Part shown: piece after piece, positions 161-6,334 of the stretch | How positions within the stretch are numbered: the first letter of the stretch is position 1 | How the letters are laid out: every line of letters starts with the position of its first letter | Source of the DNA: Candidatus Gallacutalibacter stercoravium | GTDB lineage: Bacteria > Bacillota > Clostridia > Oscillospirales > Acutalibacteraceae | Direction: 5' to 3' | DNA length: 64,000 nt | NCBI GenBank assembly: GCA_018716975.1 | Contig: DVJE01000043.1 | Location: forward strand, 1 to 64,000 | Made by a program: the position numbers and the translations under genes | The notes under the pieces: generated by a model | The model's database searches: none | Told to the model about the DNA's origin: nothing | The model's input: only the letters and a program-made list of their open reading frames with translations

Positions 161-189
161 TTGACAAAGTATTCCCTTTGTGCTAAAAT
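161..189 (+). promoter_or_regulatory. Sigma-A promoter of the polyamine operon leader
   Basis: The -35 TTGACA is at 161-166 and the -10 TAAAAT at 184-189, separated by exactly 17 bases. A TG dinucleotide one base before the -10 adds an extended -10 element. Transcription would start near 196, about 450 bases before the first structural gene, so the operon has a long leader. Confidence 0.75.
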
Positions 190-540
190 TTATTTGATTT
201 TGGAAGGATATAAGAGTCTTTTCAAAGCAATTGTTCTGGATCACTCCGTCAGGGAGTTAAGGCCATACGGACAGCCGGGTCCACTGCCGATTGGCGGCCT
301 TTGTGCAGCCTTATTGATTGAGTTAAAAGCTCAAATTTTATAAGTTGGTTACTTCATAACCGAAATGCGCCTGTGCGCAGACTTGTGAAACGGTCAATAA
401 GAGTAGCAAAAGTATGATTGCTATTAGACTCTGATCATTCCGTTGTGCCTGAATGTGTCTATTGTTTTGTGTTTTCTGTATGCCCTGCAAAAGCCGGCTG
501 GTTTGGTGCGCGTTCTTAGTGGCGGCCGCTGGATGGCGGG

Positions 541-573
541 ATGCAGAAAAATAAAACCTCTCTCAGGTTATAA
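541..573 (+). CDS. Possible leader peptide MQKNKTSLRL
   Basis: A ten-codon frame starts at ATG 541. Its TAA (571-573) touches the first base of the terminator stem. The purine-rich ggatggcggg just upstream could serve as a ribosome site, but the spacing is short. A ribosome on the last codons would cover the 5' arm of the terminator. The peptide contains one Arg codon (AGG), and arginine is the probable operon substrate. Translation is unproven, and a frame this short could arise by chance. Confidence 0.3.
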   Translation: MQKNKTSLRL

Positions 574-611
574 CGCAAGTTGTGCGTGCTGCACAGCTTG
601 CGTTTTTTGTT
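573..611 (+). terminator. Intrinsic terminator/attenuator just before speA
   Basis: The stem 573-585 pairs with 591-603 (acgcaag with cttgcgt at the base, one G-U pair) around a 5-base loop, about 13 pairs. It is followed by a T-rich run, tttttgttttt. It lies between the operon promoter and the speA ribosome site, so it must be read through for expression. That is the usual arrangement of an attenuator. Confidence 0.8.
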
Positions 612-644
612 TTTGGTAGCAACCAGCAGAAGGGGGAAAAAATA

Positions 645-2105
645 TTGGAAATAAGCCGCACCCATTTGGATCAAAACCGGGCCCCTATCTACGAGGCTTT
701 GGAAACGTTTCGGCAAATGCGCGTTGTTCCATTTGACGTGCCGGGCCATAAGCGCGGCCGGGGTAACCCGGAATTGACCGCCTTTTTAGGCCAGCAGTGT
801 GTGGGCGTGGATGTGAACAGTATGAAGCCGCTGGATAATCTTTGCCATCCGGTATCTGTTATTCGCGAAGCGGAGGAATTGGCGGCCGATGCCTTTGGCG
901 CCGCCCACGCCTTTTTAATGGTAGGCGGTACCACAAGCTCGGTGCAAAGCATGGTGCTAAGCACCTGCAAGCGTGGGGACGAGATCATTTTGCCGCGCAA
1001 TGTGCATAAAAGCGTTATCAACGCCTTGGTTCTTTGCGGCGCAATCCCGGTTTATGTCAATCCAGAGGTGGATCAGCGGCTGGGCATCTCTTTGGGAATG
1101 AAGCGCGAGCAGGTGGCTAAGGCAATTGCCGAGCACCCCAATGCGGTGGCGGTGCTGGTGAACAATCCTACTTATTATGGTATTTGCAGCGATCTTCGCG
1201 CCATTGTTAAGATGGCCCACGACGCTGGAATGCGTTGTTTGGCGGATGAAGCCCACGGCACGCATTTCTATTTCGGCGGGGGGCTTCCGGTATCCGCTAT
1301 GGCGGCGGGGGCGGATATGGCCGCTGTGTCTATGCATAAAAGCGGCGGCAGCCTCACCCAATCCAGTCTTTTGCTGGTGGGCCCCAATATTCATGCCGGC
1401 TATGTGCGCCAAATCATCAATTTAACGCAAACCACGTCGGGCAGCTATCTGCTGATGTCTAGTTTGGATATCAGCCGCCGCAATTTGGCTTTGCGGGGGC
1501 GGCAAGTATTCCATCAGGTGGCGGATATGGCCGAATACGCCCGCCAAGAGATCAACTCGGTGGGCGGCTATTATGCTTTTGGCCGTGAGCTGATGAACGG
1601 CAACTCCATTTTTGATTTTGACACCACAAAATTAAGCGTGCACACCTTAGATATTGGGCTTGCCGGCATTGAAGTTTATGATATTTTGCGGGATGAGTAC
1701 GACATACAAATTGAATTTGGAGATATCGGCAATATCTTAACCTACCTGTCTATGGGGGATCGCCCCCAAGAGCTGGAACGTTTGGTCAGCGCGTTGGCGG
1801 AGATCCGCCGCCGTTATCAAAAGGATGGAACCGGGCTGTTGAGTCAGGAGTATATCGATCCCGAGGTGGTTACCAGCCCGCAAGAGGCGTTTTACGCCGA
1901 AAAGATCAGCCTACCGCTAGAGAAAAGCGAAGGGCGCGTGTGTAGCGAGTTTGTCATGTGCTATCCGCCGGGGATTCCGATTTTAGCGCCGGGTGAGCGG
2001 ATCACAGCGGAGATTTTGGAACATATTCAGTATGCAAAAATGAAGGGCTGCAGTATGACCGGGCCGGAAGATCCCGAGCTAAAGCGGCTGAATGTATTGG
2101 CGTAA
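645..2105 (+). CDS. speA: Orn/Lys/Arg decarboxylase family protein, probable arginine decarboxylase (SpeA)
   Basis: A PLP-dependent, aspartate-aminotransferase-fold decarboxylase of about 486 aa, the size of the short Bacillus SpeA type without an N-terminal wing domain. The PLP lysine is in SMHKSGGS (about K232), preceded by the cofactor-contact motif ADEAHGTHFYF. The C-terminal domain carries the family motif YPPGIPILAPGE. I chose TTG 645 because AGGGGG lies 8 bases upstream; the in-frame GTG at 582 lies inside the terminator hairpin. An agmatinase two genes downstream argues that the product is agmatine, so arginine is the likely substrate. Lysine or ornithine cannot be excluded from sequence. 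First gene of a five-gene operon. Confidence 0.88.
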   Translation: MEISRTHLDQNRAPIYEALETFRQMRVVPFDVPGHKRGRGNPELTAFLGQQCVGVDVNSMKPLDNLCHPVSVIREAEELAADAFGAAHAFLMVGGTTSSVQSMVLSTCKRGDEIILPRNVHKSVINALVLCGAIPVYVNPEVDQRLGISLGMKREQVAKAIAEHPNAVAVLVNNPTYYGICSDLRAIVKMAHDAGMRCLADEAHGTHFYFGGGLPVSAMAAGADMAAVSMHKSGGSLTQSSLLLVGPNIHAGYVRQIINLTQTTSGSYLLMSSLDISRRNLALRGRQVFHQVADMAEYARQEINSVGGYYAFGRELMNGNSIFDFDTTKLSVHTLDIGLAGIEVYDILRDEYDIQIEFGDIGNILTYLSMGDRPQELERLVSALAEIRRRYQKDGTGLLSQEYIDPEVVTSPQEAFYAEKISLPLEKSEGRVCSEFVMCYPPGIPILAPGERITAEILEHIQYAKMKGCSMTGPEDPELKRLNVLA

Positions 2106-2119
2106 AAGGCGGTGATATT

Positions 2120-2974
2120 ATGGAAATGTGGTTTAGTGAATTTCATACCCCGGATGTCAAGCACAGCATCCGGATTAACCGGCACTTGTATTCTAAGCAA
2201 AGCGATTACCAGCGCATCGATATTTTTGAAACGCCGGAATTCGGCCGTGTTCTAACGCTGGACGGCAATGTGATGTTGACGGAGCGGGATGAGTTTATTT
2301 ATGACGAAATGATCACGCATGTGCCGATGGCGGTGCATCCCGGCATTACGGACGTGCTGGTGATCGGCGCCGGGGACGGCGGCGTGGTGCGGGAATTAAC
2401 CCGTTACGACCGGATCAAACGCATTGACTTGGTGGAGATGGATCCGCAGGTGGTGGAAGCTTGCCGCACCTATCTACCCAGTAACGCCTGCCGGATGGAC
2501 GATCGCCGGGTGCATATTTATTTTGAGAACGCTCTGAAATTCATCCGCAGGTGCGAGGCCTCTTATGACCTGATTATTGTTGACTCTACCGATCCCTTCG
2601 GCCCGTCGGAAGGGTTGTTTACCCGCGAGTTTTATGGTAACTGCTACAATGCTTTGCGGGAAGACGGCATTATGGTGAACCAACAAGGAAGCCCCTTTTA
2701 CGCCGAGGATGCCAACGCCATGCAGCGCAGTCATAAGCGCATTGTCAGCACCTTTCCCATCAGCCGGGTTTACCAGGCCCATATTCCCACCTATGCGGCG
2801 GGATATTGGCTGTTCGGCTTTGCCAGTAAAAAATATCACCCCATTGACGACCTGGATGGCGATGCTTGGAACGCATTAAACCTGCACACCCGCTACTATA
2901 CCACCAGGCTGCACGTGGGCGCCTTTTGGTTGCCGGCATTTTTGGAAGAGATTCTAGAGGAGGTGGAACGGTAA
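2120..2974 (+). CDS. speE: Spermidine synthase family aminopropyltransferase (SpeE)
   Basis: 284 aa, normal length for SpeE. An N-terminal beta domain precedes a Rossmann methyltransferase-like fold. Visible motifs are GAGDGG (83-88), the acidic VEMDP (about 105-109) that binds the nucleoside, and DSTDPFGPSEGLF (155-167), the aminopropyl-donor loop. The family transfers an aminopropyl group from decarboxylated S-adenosylmethionine to putrescine or a similar amine. ATG 2120 follows AAAGGCGGTG, 14 bases after the speA stop, so the two are probably co-translated. No S-adenosylmethionine decarboxylase (speD) is in the window, and the operon also encodes the carboxyspermidine route. The true acceptor and donor are therefore open. 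Confidence 0.9.
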   Translation: MEMWFSEFHTPDVKHSIRINRHLYSKQSDYQRIDIFETPEFGRVLTLDGNVMLTERDEFIYDEMITHVPMAVHPGITDVLVIGAGDGGVVRELTRYDRIKRIDLVEMDPQVVEACRTYLPSNACRMDDRRVHIYFENALKFIRRCEASYDLIIVDSTDPFGPSEGLFTREFYGNCYNALREDGIMVNQQGSPFYAEDANAMQRSHKRIVSTFPISRVYQAHIPTYAAGYWLFGFASKKYHPIDDLDGDAWNALNLHTRYYTTRLHVGAFWLPAFLEEILEEVER

Positions 2975-2977
2975 AAG

Positions 2978-3847
2978 ATGCTCCCACCGAACATAGAAAC
3001 CTTTATCGGCTGCAACACAGCATATTCTGACGCCCGCATTGTGCTCTACGGCGCGCCCTTCGATTCCACCACCAGCTTTCGCCCCGGCGCCAGGTTCGGA
3101 CCCTCCGCCATGCGGCATGAAAGCTTTGGCTTAGAAACCTACAGCCCCTATCAAGATGCCGATTTGACCGACTGCGCTGTTTTTGACAGCGGGGATCTGG
3201 AGCTGTGCTTCGGCAGTGCAGAGGCGGCATTGCGCGACATTGAGGCCAGGGCCGCCGAAATTTTGCAGGATGGAAAAACCCCGTTGTTGCTGGGCGGCGA
3301 ACACTTGGTTACATTGGGCGCGGTGCGCGCTGTGGCGAAGAAATATCCCGGCCTTCATATCGTTCATTTTGACGCCCACGCCGATCTACGCAACGATTAT
3401 TTGGGCGCCGGGCTTAGCCATGCCTGCGTTTTACGGCGCTGCCACGATCTGTTGGGGGATGGGCGCATCCATCAGTTTTGTATCCGCAGCGGAGAGAGGG
3501 AGGAATTTGCGTTTGCCAAAGCGCACACGGAGCTTCATCCCTTCTGCTTCGACGGGTTAAAACAAACAGTAGAGGCTTTGCGCAAACAGGGCGCGCCTGT
3601 CTATTTTACCATTGATCTGGATTGCTTGGATCCTTCTGCGTTTCCGGGAACCGGTACGCCGGAGGCCGGCGGCGTCACCTTTTTAGAGCTTTTAGAGGCG
3701 ATCCGCACGGTTTGCACCACCCATGTGGTTGGCGCCGATGTGAACGAGCTGGCTCCGATGTTGGATCAAAGCGGCGTTTCTACCGCAACCGCATGCAAAG
3801 CGTTGCGGGAATTGCTTATAGCGCTTGATAAAATTAATATAAATTAA
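2978..3847 (+). CDS. speB: Agmatinase (ureohydrolase family)
   Basis: 289 aa, the family's usual length. The dinuclear manganese site is complete: GGEH (106-109), DAHAD (132-136) and DLDCLD (213-218), with the family signature continuing as PGTGTPEAGG. Agmatinase hydrolyses agmatine to putrescine and urea. ATG 2978 is three bases after the speE stop and is preceded by AGAGGAGGTGG. The pairing with speA supports a cytoplasmic arginine to agmatine to putrescine route. Other ureohydrolases (arginase, or an aminopropylagmatine ureohydrolase) share these motifs; the operon context favours an agmatine-type substrate. Confidence 0.9.
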   Translation: MLPPNIETFIGCNTAYSDARIVLYGAPFDSTTSFRPGARFGPSAMRHESFGLETYSPYQDADLTDCAVFDSGDLELCFGSAEAALRDIEARAAEILQDGKTPLLLGGEHLVTLGAVRAVAKKYPGLHIVHFDAHADLRNDYLGAGLSHACVLRRCHDLLGDGRIHQFCIRSGEREEFAFAKAHTELHPFCFDGLKQTVEALRKQGAPVYFTIDLDCLDPSAFPGTGTPEAGGVTFLELLEAIRTVCTTHVVGADVNELAPMLDQSGVSTATACKALRELLIALDKININ

Positions 3848-3863: not shown

Positions 3864-5123
3864 ATGAGCAGAGTTCTTGTTATTGGCTGCGGCGGAGTCG
3901 CCTCCGTCGCCATTCATAAGTGCTGTCAGGTGAGCGAGGTTTTTACCGAACTGTGCATTGCCAGCCGCACCAAGTCTAAATGCGATAAGCTGGCCGCCGA
4001 ACTGGCGCCCAAAACCTCAACCAAAATAACCACCGCCCAGGTGGATGCGGACGATGTTCAGCAGGTGATTGATCTGATCAACGCCTATCAGCCCGATTTG
4101 GTGATGAACATTGCCCTCCCTTATCAGGATCTAACAATTATGGATGCCTGCCTGGCCTGCGGGGTGAACTATATGGATACGGCGAATTATGAGCCGGAGG
4201 ATACCGACGATCCCGAATGGCGGGCCGTTTATGAAAAACGCTGCAAGGAAGAGGGCTTTTCTGCCTATTTTGACTATAGCTGGCAATGGGCCTACCGCAA
4301 AAGGTTTGAAGAGGCCGGTCTTACCGCCTTGCTGGGTTGTGGGTTTGATCCGGGCGTGACGCAGGCGTATTGCGCATATGCCCAAAAACATGAGTTTGAT
4401 TCGATTGATACCATCGATATTCTGGATTGTAACGGCGGCGACCACGGCTATGCTTTTGCCACCAACTTTAACCCTGAGGTCAATCTTCGTGAGGTTTCCG
4501 CCCCGGGCAGCTATTGGGAGGATGGCCACTGGGTAGAAATTCCTCCAATGAGCATCAAGCGAGAGTATGAGTTTGATCAGGTAGGGCACAAGGACATGTA
4601 TCTGTTGCACCATGAGGAAATTGAAAGCCTGGCCAAGAATATCCCACAGGTAAAGCGCATTCGTTTCTTTATGACCTTTGGCCAGAGCTATCTCGATCAT
4701 ATGCGCTGCCTGGAGGATGTGGGGATGTTATCCACCACCCCGATTGAATTTGAGGGGCAGCAAATTGTGCCCATTAAGTTTTTAAAAGCCTTGTTGCCTG
4801 ACCCTGCAAGTTTGGGTCCCCGCACCAAAGGCAAAACCAATATCGGCTGCATCTTTACCGGCAAGAAAGACGGCAAAGAGAAAACGTATTATATTTACAA
4901 CGTTTGCGATCATCAGGCGTGCTACCGCGAGGTGGGCAGCCAGGCCATCAGCTATACCACCGGTGTGCCCGCTATGTGCGGTGCGTTGATGCTTTTGACC
5001 GGCCGTTGGAACAAACCCGGTGTCTACACGGTAGAAGAACTGGATCCGGATCCCTTTTTGGACGCCTTGGATCAGTACGGCTTGCCCAGAAGCGAGAGCC
5101 GGACGCCGCAGCTTGTAGATTGA
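3864..5123 (+). CDS. Carboxyspermidine (carboxynorspermidine) dehydrogenase, saccharopine dehydrogenase family
   Basis: 419 aa, with an N-terminal Rossmann site VIGCGGVASV (about 5-14) and the saccharopine-dehydrogenase motif VNYMDTANYEP. A central GCGFDPGVTQAY is typical of the CANSDH/CASDH branch. The enzyme condenses putrescine (or diaminopropane) with aspartate semialdehyde and reduces the imine with NADPH. ATG 3864 follows AAAAGGAGGGC. The next gene is the matching decarboxylase and overlaps it by one base, the usual linked pair of the alternative spermidine pathway. Saccharopine or lysine metabolism is less likely in this context. Confidence 0.85.
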   Translation: MSRVLVIGCGGVASVAIHKCCQVSEVFTELCIASRTKSKCDKLAAELAPKTSTKITTAQVDADDVQQVIDLINAYQPDLVMNIALPYQDLTIMDACLACGVNYMDTANYEPEDTDDPEWRAVYEKRCKEEGFSAYFDYSWQWAYRKRFEEAGLTALLGCGFDPGVTQAYCAYAQKHEFDSIDTIDILDCNGGDHGYAFATNFNPEVNLREVSAPGSYWEDGHWVEIPPMSIKREYEFDQVGHKDMYLLHHEEIESLAKNIPQVKRIRFFMTFGQSYLDHMRCLEDVGMLSTTPIEFEGQQIVPIKFLKALLPDPASLGPRTKGKTNIGCIFTGKKDGKEKTYYIYNVCDHQACYREVGSQAISYTTGVPAMCGALMLLTGRWNKPGVYTVEELDPDPFLDALDQYGLPRSESRTPQLVD

Positions 5124-6334
5124 TGGGGGCTCGGATAAAGGATGTCCGCCCGCCTTTTGCCGGGCTAGGAGAGCGGACGCCGGAGGAATTATTTGGCTCG
5201 CTGCCCACGCCCTGCTATATCTTAGACGAAGCCGCTCTGCGCCGTAACGGCGAAATTCTGGCAGGGGTGGCGGCGCGCACTGGCTGTAAAATACTGCTGG
5301 CGCAAAAGGCCTTTTCTAACTATAATCTATACCCCGTTCTAGCCCCTTATCTGGCGGGCAGCGAGGCGAGCGGCTTATTTGAGGCCCGCTTGGGCGCTGA
5401 GGAGATGCCCGGCAAAGAGGTTCATGTGTTCTGCGGCGCCTACCGGGACGATCAGCTTCAAGAGCTTTTGCGCTATGCGGATCATATTGTATTTAACTCG
5501 CCCAGCCAGTTGGCAAAATTCGGCCCCGCGGCCCGCGCCGCTCAAAAAAGCATTGGGCTGCGGATAAACCCGGAGTACTCCACTCAAGAAGGCCATGCTA
5601 TTTATGATCCCTGTGCTCCGGGCAGCCGCCTGGGCACAACCCGCGCCCAATGGGAAGAAAAGATGACGCCGCAATTGGCCGGCCTTTTGGACGGCCTCCA
5701 TTTTCATACGCTGTGCGAACAGGATGCCGATGCGTTGGAACTGACCCTGAAAGCGGTGGAAGAGCGTTTTGGCGATGTATTGGCACACATGAAATGGCTC
5801 AATTTTGGCGGTGGGCATCATATTACCCGGCCGGGCTATGATATCCCCCGGCTGGAAAAATGCATCCGCATGGCACAGCAGAAATGGGACGTGCAGATTT
5901 ATCTGGAACCGGGTGAAGCCTGCGCCCTGAATGCGGGCTACCTTGCCTCACGCGTGTTGGATGTGCTGCAAAATGGTAAGACACAAATTGCTATTTTAGA
6001 CGCCAGCGCCGCCTGCCATATGCCGGATGTGCTGGAGATGCCCTACCGTCCGCCGCTGTATGGCGCAGGCGAACCAGAAGAGATGGCGAACACCTTTCGA
6101 TTGGGAGGCCCCACCTGTTTGGCTGGCGATCAAATTGGGGAATACGGCTTTAACACGCCTTTGAAGGAGGGCGATTTGTTGCTGTTTGGGGATATGGCGA
6201 TTTATACCACATGTAAAAACAATACCTTTAACGGGATGCCGTTGCCGGACCTATTCGTCTGGCATACCGACGGCCGGCTGCAATGTTTGCGCACATTTGG
6301 CTATACGGATTTTAAATGCCGGCTGGGGCGGTAA
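5123..6334 (+). CDS. nspC: Carboxynorspermidine/carboxyspermidine decarboxylase
   Basis: 403 aa, fold III PLP decarboxylase (alanine racemase-like barrel). The N-terminus LPTPCYILDE is typical, and the PLP lysine is in LLAQKAFS (about K62). Further motifs are LHFHTLCEQ, LNFGGGHHI, EPGEACAL and the CASDC-specific HMPDVLEMPYRPPL. It decarboxylates carboxy(nor)spermidine to (nor)spermidine. The frame is open far upstream, but I start at ATG 5123, which overlaps the previous stop as TGATG and implies translational coupling. The ribosome site there is weak. Last gene of the operon, followed by terminators at 6393 and 6483. Confidence 0.88.
   Translation: MGARIKDVRPPFAGLGERTPEELFGSLPTPCYILDEAALRRNGEILAGVAARTGCKILLAQKAFSNYNLYPVLAPYLAGSEASGLFEARLGAEEMPGKEVHVFCGAYRDDQLQELLRYADHIVFNSPSQLAKFGPAARAAQKSIGLRINPEYSTQEGHAIYDPCAPGSRLGTTRAQWEEKMTPQLAGLLDGLHFHTLCEQDADALELTLKAVEERFGDVLAHMKWLNFGGGHHITRPGYDIPRLEKCIRMAQQKWDVQIYLEPGEACALNAGYLASRVLDVLQNGKTQIAILDASAACHMPDVLEMPYRPPLYGAGEPEEMANTFRLGGPTCLAGDQIGEYGFNTPLKEGDLLLFGDMAIYTTCKNNTFNGMPLPDLFVWHTDGRLQCLRTFGYTDFKCRLGR

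Follow-up and report, generated by a model that had tools for sequence, protein, structure and literature searches.

The window analysed here, the whole 64,000-nt stretch from Candidatus Gallacutalibacter stercoravium, carries close to its start a long leader upstream of a polyamine operon, and the question raised by this locus is whether the leader regulates the operon and, if so, which signal it senses. In the initial annotation, made from the sequence alone, the leader had been described as uncharacterised and structured, with a consensus promoter, a three-way junction and an attenuator formed by a strong intrinsic terminator in front of the speA ribosome site; arginine, putrescine, spermidine and charged tRNA were considered as candidate signals. 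The features discussed below are collected in Table 1.

Table 1. Positions of the features of the leader and of the operon in the window
Feature	Position	Strand	Basis
Sigma-70-type promoter, TTGACA-N17-TAAAAT with extended TG	161..189	+	11/12 match
Conserved RNA domain, proposed riboswitch aptamer, ~230 nt	208..439	+	Covariance model R1, profile and alignment A1
P1 5' strand, closing the domain, pairs with 427-432	213..218	+	Own versus swapped pairing
RF02440 (SpF59 sRNA) match, domain core	238..290	+	66.1 bits versus gathering 37.2
P2 238-242/278-282; P2a 243-247/253-257; P3 261-263/274-276	within the RF02440 match, 238..290	+	
Candidate pseudoknot, CGG 268-270 with CCG 287-289	268..289	+	Pair count
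P7, variable hairpin, 293-295 with 308-310	293..310	+	Pair count
P4, 312-318/393-399, enclosing hairpin P5 (319-324/328-333) and the P6 arm	312..399	+	RNAalifold and pair count
P6, 337-346/380-389, with P6a 347-351/357-361 and P6b 367-370/375-378	337..389	+	Pair count
Putative antiterminator strand 1, 3' strand of P6b and P6	373..387	+	15 bp with 574-589
P8 hairpin, 400-404/428-432 and 406-409/418-421	400..432	+	Pair count
P1 3' strand, alternatively pairing with 400-404 (P8 extension)	427..432	+	Pairing test and pair count
Intrinsic terminator, stem 572-604 and U-tract 605-611	572..611	+	Folding
Putative antiterminator strand 2, terminator 5' arm	574..589	+	Own versus swapped pairing
RBS AGGGGG and speA, fold-type I Arg/Lys/Orn decarboxylase family, likely TTG start 645	631..2105	+	
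speE, polyamine aminopropyltransferase	2120..2974	+	NF002010, 373.5 bits, cut-off 260
speB, agmatinase	2978..3847	+	TIGR01230, 275.5 bits, cut-off 174.3
Carboxy(nor)spermidine synthase (CASDH) family	3864..5123	+	NF043000, 413.5 bits, below cut-off 800
ORF with likely carboxy(nor)spermidine decarboxylase, start probably near 5123	4904..6334	+	Named by sequence and position

Promoter, terminator and operon of the window

The consensus promoter was borne out (Table 1), and from its position transcription is predicted to start near 196, ~15 nt 5' of helix P1 of the RNA domain described below. A promoter-like site within 75 nt upstream of P1 was also detected in 95 of 105 diverse homologues, compared to 25 of 105 for the next 78 nt upstream. 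The terminator in front of the speA ribosome site was likewise as strong as had been claimed, its stem having an energy of -22.7 kcal/mol (z -5.3, 0 of 200 shuffles), and it ends ~20 nt 5' of the ribosome-binding site (631-636); an intrinsic terminator was present in 98 of the 105 diverse leaders.

The description of the leader as structured was upheld in part. An excess of structure over shuffled sequences was found for 205-440 (minimum free energy -74.1 kcal/mol, z -4.1, 0 of 200 shuffles) and for 196-644 (z -3.8), but the three-way junction at 259-301 was rejected. Its closing helix (259-264 with 296-301) forms when a single sequence is folded and is not conserved, as at least five of its six pairs could be formed in only 4 of 90 homologues, and the conserved fold uses these positions for P3 and P7 instead (Table 1).

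The operon that follows includes speE (Table 1), but in the window genome, which is 98% complete, neither the E. coli nor the B. subtilis type of SpeD was found. It is not evident where the window SpeE would obtain its decarboxylated SAM, whereas genes of the carboxyspermidine route are there. At the start of the contig, before the promoter, positions 18-86 hold inverted repeat arms (AGCAAATAGGA ... TCCTATTTGCT) and then a T-rich stretch; this may be the terminator of a gene that lies further upstream, beyond the contig.

A conserved RNA domain and its fold

The homologous sequences of alignment A1 (90 in total) have common blocks from ~208 to ~439. A full-length covariance model (R1) of 236 positions, blind to gene context, gave 230 bits to the window domain, the window itself being part of the model, and a full-length domain profile matched 233 of the 233 loci fetched. 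RF02440 (SpF59_sRNA, ldcC RNA) was the sole Rfam family found in the leader, with a score above its gathering threshold (Table 1); matches to snoRNA and miRNA models had high E-values and were rejected as unsupported. The RF02440 model is 54 nt long and, as the full-domain profile matches all the loci, it holds only a fraction of the ~230-nt conserved domain. Thus, the statement of the initial annotation that no riboswitch class fits the leader still stands, but the leader is not wholly uncharacterised, since this 54-nt piece of it is an Rfam member.

Covarying pairs, sought in the homologous leaders, were present. In an explicit pair count, 93.3% of the cells were paired overall and double changes affected 29 pairs, in 251 cells compared to 86.8 in shuffles (0 of 500), whereas sliding the partner columns by 1-3 positions made pairing fall to 29-46%. 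Two-sided changes detected by RNAalifold and by the pair count backed P2, P2a, P3, P5, P6a, P7, P6b and P8. Among them, P7 showed double changes in 3 of 3 counted pairs with 73% of its cells paired, and P8 was paired in 95% of the cells, with some double changes. Both analyses found P4 and P6 nearly invariant and P5 covarying, and the pair count revealed that P6, P6a and P6b form a three-way junction that is conserved. The candidate pseudoknot was paired in 98.5% of the cells and, being almost invariant, shows no covariation. Covariation cannot probe such invariant core pairs, and in the loci chosen by an exact core 26-mer (L061-L180) the invariance of the core is partly by construction, which is not the case for the other loci.

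The helix that closes the domain, P1, was supported by the comparison of own with swapped pairing across 105 leaders (0 of 5000 permutations). Its 3' strand, ACUCU, can also pair with a near-invariant AGAGU at 400-404 in place of the 5' strand of P1, and the choice between P1 and the P8 extension may be a second mutually exclusive one within the aptamer.

Some homologues depart from this layout. Two loci (L011 and L199) have an extra P6a-like hairpin as a tandem insertion in the P6 junction (TTGGCAACTNAATTGCCAG), and three others (L008, L022 and L182) have an additional variable hairpin between UGCCGA and P7. In Bacillales loci such as L066, L096 and L121, a further conserved stretch (GATATATTTGAATATTAA ... 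TTAATATTGATTATATC) lies between P1 and the terminator; it looks like an extra long helix and was absent from the Clostridia inspected by eye.

Genes downstream of the element and its distribution

The gene context was counted at 226 loci with enough downstream sequence, taking at each the first codirectional polyamine gene. Such a gene came first in 224 of them, at a median of 201 nt downstream of the RNA, and it encoded carboxyspermidine synthase (CASDH) in 90, speA in 70, speD in 56 and potA in 8; for the speD and potA examples, family identity was above the NCBIfam curated cut-offs. Other speA genes therefore also have homologous leaders, and the association extends across unrelated families that deal with one metabolite. 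Also, among the new or divergent loci found with R1, all 19 that were examined precede speA, speD or potA. In the two remaining loci, L194 and L196, no polyamine gene was found downstream. They are the two weakest matches, and by eye the genes that follow them encode a C39-peptidase-like lipoprotein and a membrane protein; these copies are possibly decayed, false or repurposed.

This gene set bears on the nature of the signal. Leaders that control only CASDH, speD or potA exist, so arginine or charged tRNA does not fit. An attenuator dependent on a leader peptide or on tRNA, speF/orf34-like or T-box-like, in which arginine, ornithine or tRNA would be sensed through translation, has a precedent in Salmonella, where the speF leader with its translated peptide orf34 reportedly controls a polyamine-forming decarboxylase (PMC6386406). 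The window element resembles that system in being a leader ahead of such a decarboxylase and differs from it in the lack of a conserved ORF: a small ORF with an SD-like site was found in only 33 of 105 leaders, those listed look mutually unrelated, and no conserved short ORF emerged among the 105. The T-box covariance model gave no match in the window leader up to E=10, and the genes behind many of the leaders have nothing to do with arginine. Both the leader-peptide and the T-box candidates were consequently rejected, and this type of explanation is considered extremely improbable.

Regarding its distribution, the RF02440 model detected the element in 17 of 60 genomes of relatives, 99 of 395 of the order and 18 of 398 of the phylum, as well as in 27 of 349 genomes of a Bacilli-like class and 10 of 100 of another class. 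The search with R1 was positive in 29 of 120 genomes of the family, 20 of 299 of the phylum and 19 of 59 of a further family (that of G1033), in which the Rfam fragment had produced few matches. The exact core 26-mer was present in at least 120 contigs, from Paenibacillus, Neobacillus, Lachnospiraceae, Oscillospiraceae, Phascolarctobacterium and others. By these sequence matches, hundreds of Firmicutes carry the RNA element.

One genome (G1338) has the RNA twice (L257 and contig C4:51761-51968), with one copy before speA. The element was also found with a speA operon in contig JAGADT010000055.1 (L120), binned as Desulfovibrionaceae, which is explained either by wrong binning of the contig or by transfer beyond the Firmicutes. 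A phage or mobile origin was rejected: the exact core was absent from viral contigs, there was no phage match, and the plasmid set contained it in one Paenibacillus replicon.

Coupling of the terminator to the domain and the proposed switch

The 5' arm of the terminator carries a recurring motif, CARGY, to which the invariant aptamer strand RCUUG on the 3' side of P6 is complementary, A or G both pairing with U. The complementarity reaches into the variable P6b strand and tracks its changes. In the window, the resulting antiterminator would comprise 15 bp with an energy of -20.1 kcal/mol. Across 94 leaders, the pairing of each aptamer strand with its own terminator arm was stronger (-15.36 kcal/mol) than with swapped arms (-12.06 kcal/mol; 0 of 20000 permutations), in a test that lessens and does not remove the influence of shared ancestry, whereas three control segments of the aptamer had no effect (p 0.97, 0.20 and 0.29). 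In the set with more than 25% divergence (n = 35), the values were -15.70 for own and -11.77 for swapped arms, and -10.39 and -7.60 when the variable part alone was considered (0 of 20000 in both cases). The effect was weaker in held-out loci (-10.67 vs. -9.17, p 0.02, n = 14 after excluding 5 of 19 in which P6 reads differently). As the antiterminator uses the P6b/P6 strand, folding of the aptamer and antitermination exclude each other, and as the 5' arm of the terminator is complementary to its own P6b/P6 strand, terminator and antiterminator are also mutually exclusive. The proposal that the leader controls the operon as an attenuator was thus supported by an antiterminator that co-evolves with, and couples the terminator to, the aptamer.

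These data bear on the possibility that the element is a trans-acting sRNA with its own promoter and terminator, placed before speA by chance. Rfam types RF02440 as an sRNA, and its pneumococcal counterpart is listed as an expressed one (PMC3395615). SP0916 of the pneumococcus is presumably a lysine/arginine decarboxylase gene. The RNA in question, F59/srn235/SN20, occupies the interval from SP0915 to SP0916, on the + strand and in the sense orientation of SP0916 (PMC3395615). A terminated leader would likewise appear as a small RNA. However, nearly all the copies counted above lie directly upstream of, and codirectional with, a polyamine gene of one of four unrelated types, with a terminator that co-evolves with the aptamer strand; a trans-acting sRNA placed there by chance is considered very improbable. 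Whereas the Rfam entry is an sRNA gene of 54 nt, the element is ~230 nt long, has an expression platform and acts like a leader that regulates in cis. Transposon mutants at F59 had a relative fitness of 0.05 in mouse lung (PMC3395615), a phenotype that may stem from the speA operon, and the function of F59 was left blank in the table of a 2015 review (PMC4387999); if the present proposal is true, it provides a function for this 'sRNA'.

The element is probably a cis-acting riboswitch of a new class, which would terminate transcription when its ligand, most likely spermidine, stabilises the aptamer. The nascent RNA, started near 196, would fold into a compact aptamer (208-439) in which P1 encloses P2/P2a/P3 and their likely pseudoknot, together with P7, the P4/P5/P6 arm and P8. 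With abundant ligand, the aptamer including P6/P6b would be stabilised, leaving the terminator arm free, so that the terminator would form and transcription would stop before speA. With scarce ligand, the 3' strand of P6b/P6 would pair instead with the terminator 5' arm as a 15-bp antiterminator, and the operon speA-speE-speB-CASDH-CASDC would be read. The covarying fold, the promoter, the terminator, the co-evolving exclusivity of terminator and antiterminator and the association with polyamine genes were observed, and the direct binding of a ligand, its identity and the OFF polarity of the switch are inferred. Ligand-free folding energies, calculated ignoring kinetics and pseudoknots, were -142.3 for the terminated state of 205-612 compared to -125.4 with the antiterminator forced, and -125.2 compared to -116.8 for the RNA up to 589. 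As they favour the terminated state without ligand, kinetics would have to play a part in a switch of the proposed kind.

The choice between antiterminator and terminator could also be made by an RNA-binding protein and no metabolite, which would be compatible with direct ligand binding being an inferred step. The size of the domain and its many invariant unpaired bases suggest an aptamer rather than a short binding site for a protein, however, and so does its spread over Bacilli, Clostridia and Negativicutes-like genomes; in addition, the window operon contains no regulator gene. A protein-dependent attenuator is therefore regarded as improbable.

With respect to the ligand of the proposed riboswitch, all four types of lead gene have spermidine in common, as end product or as cargo, and OFF control by an end product is the usual logic. 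Among the candidates originally put forward, the gene set favours spermidine, which on the basis of genes and pathway knowledge is most likely the ligand. A general ligand role is less likely for SAM or decarboxylated SAM, given that no SpeD of either type was found in the window genome. The same switch could have another ligand, such as putrescine, agmatine, another triamine, a derived polyamine or several polyamines: potA-type transporters carry putrescine as well as spermidine, speA makes agmatine, and the window genome, without a SpeD match, may have an unusual polyamine pool. On the other hand, CASDH and speD act downstream of putrescine, and an OFF switch on them would more plausibly respond to their product, spermidine, than to the substrate; another ligand is thus unlikely, while deserving consideration.

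The layout recalls that of the lysine riboswitch and other large terminator-type riboswitches, in which a strand of a multi-helix aptamer competes with a terminator arm; the window element has no Rfam sequence or structural match to them. A spermidine riboswitch consisting of a SAM-I aptamer with point changes has been described from 13 examples before polyamine synthesis genes of Gram-positives, where spermidine causes termination, OFF (Salvail et al. 2023, PMC10853860), and it is the only bacterial one for spermidine in the open-access literature searched. The window element shares with it the position upstream of polyamine synthesis genes and the proposed OFF control by transcription termination, but its fold is a distinct one and hundreds of genomes carry it; identity with the SAM-I variant was rejected, as no SAM-I match appeared up to E=10 in a search with all Rfam families. 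With somewhat less assurance than for the switch itself, it can be proposed that the element represents a second class of spermidine riboswitch, independent of the first in structure and much more widespread, with a pseudoknotted ~230-nt aptamer serving spermidine synthesis and uptake. With similar reserve, this class would extend over hundreds of Firmicutes, including lineages that are likely Streptococcus and Lactococcus, and would control alternative synthesis routes and uptake. Polyamines are RNA-binding metabolites that occur in abundance and, if the proposal is true, a common dedicated polyamine sensor would join two spermidine routes and uptake across Firmicutes.

Within the open-access literature searched, neither the full element nor a riboswitch role for it was described. 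Other candidate structured RNAs next to polyamine-related genes are the odc1 (uORF) and potE (WRC-18-1) motifs (PMC8632094) and the potC motif RF01751 (PMC2864571), the last of which gave no Rfam match in the window; all three are small or weakly supported structures, unrelated to the element.
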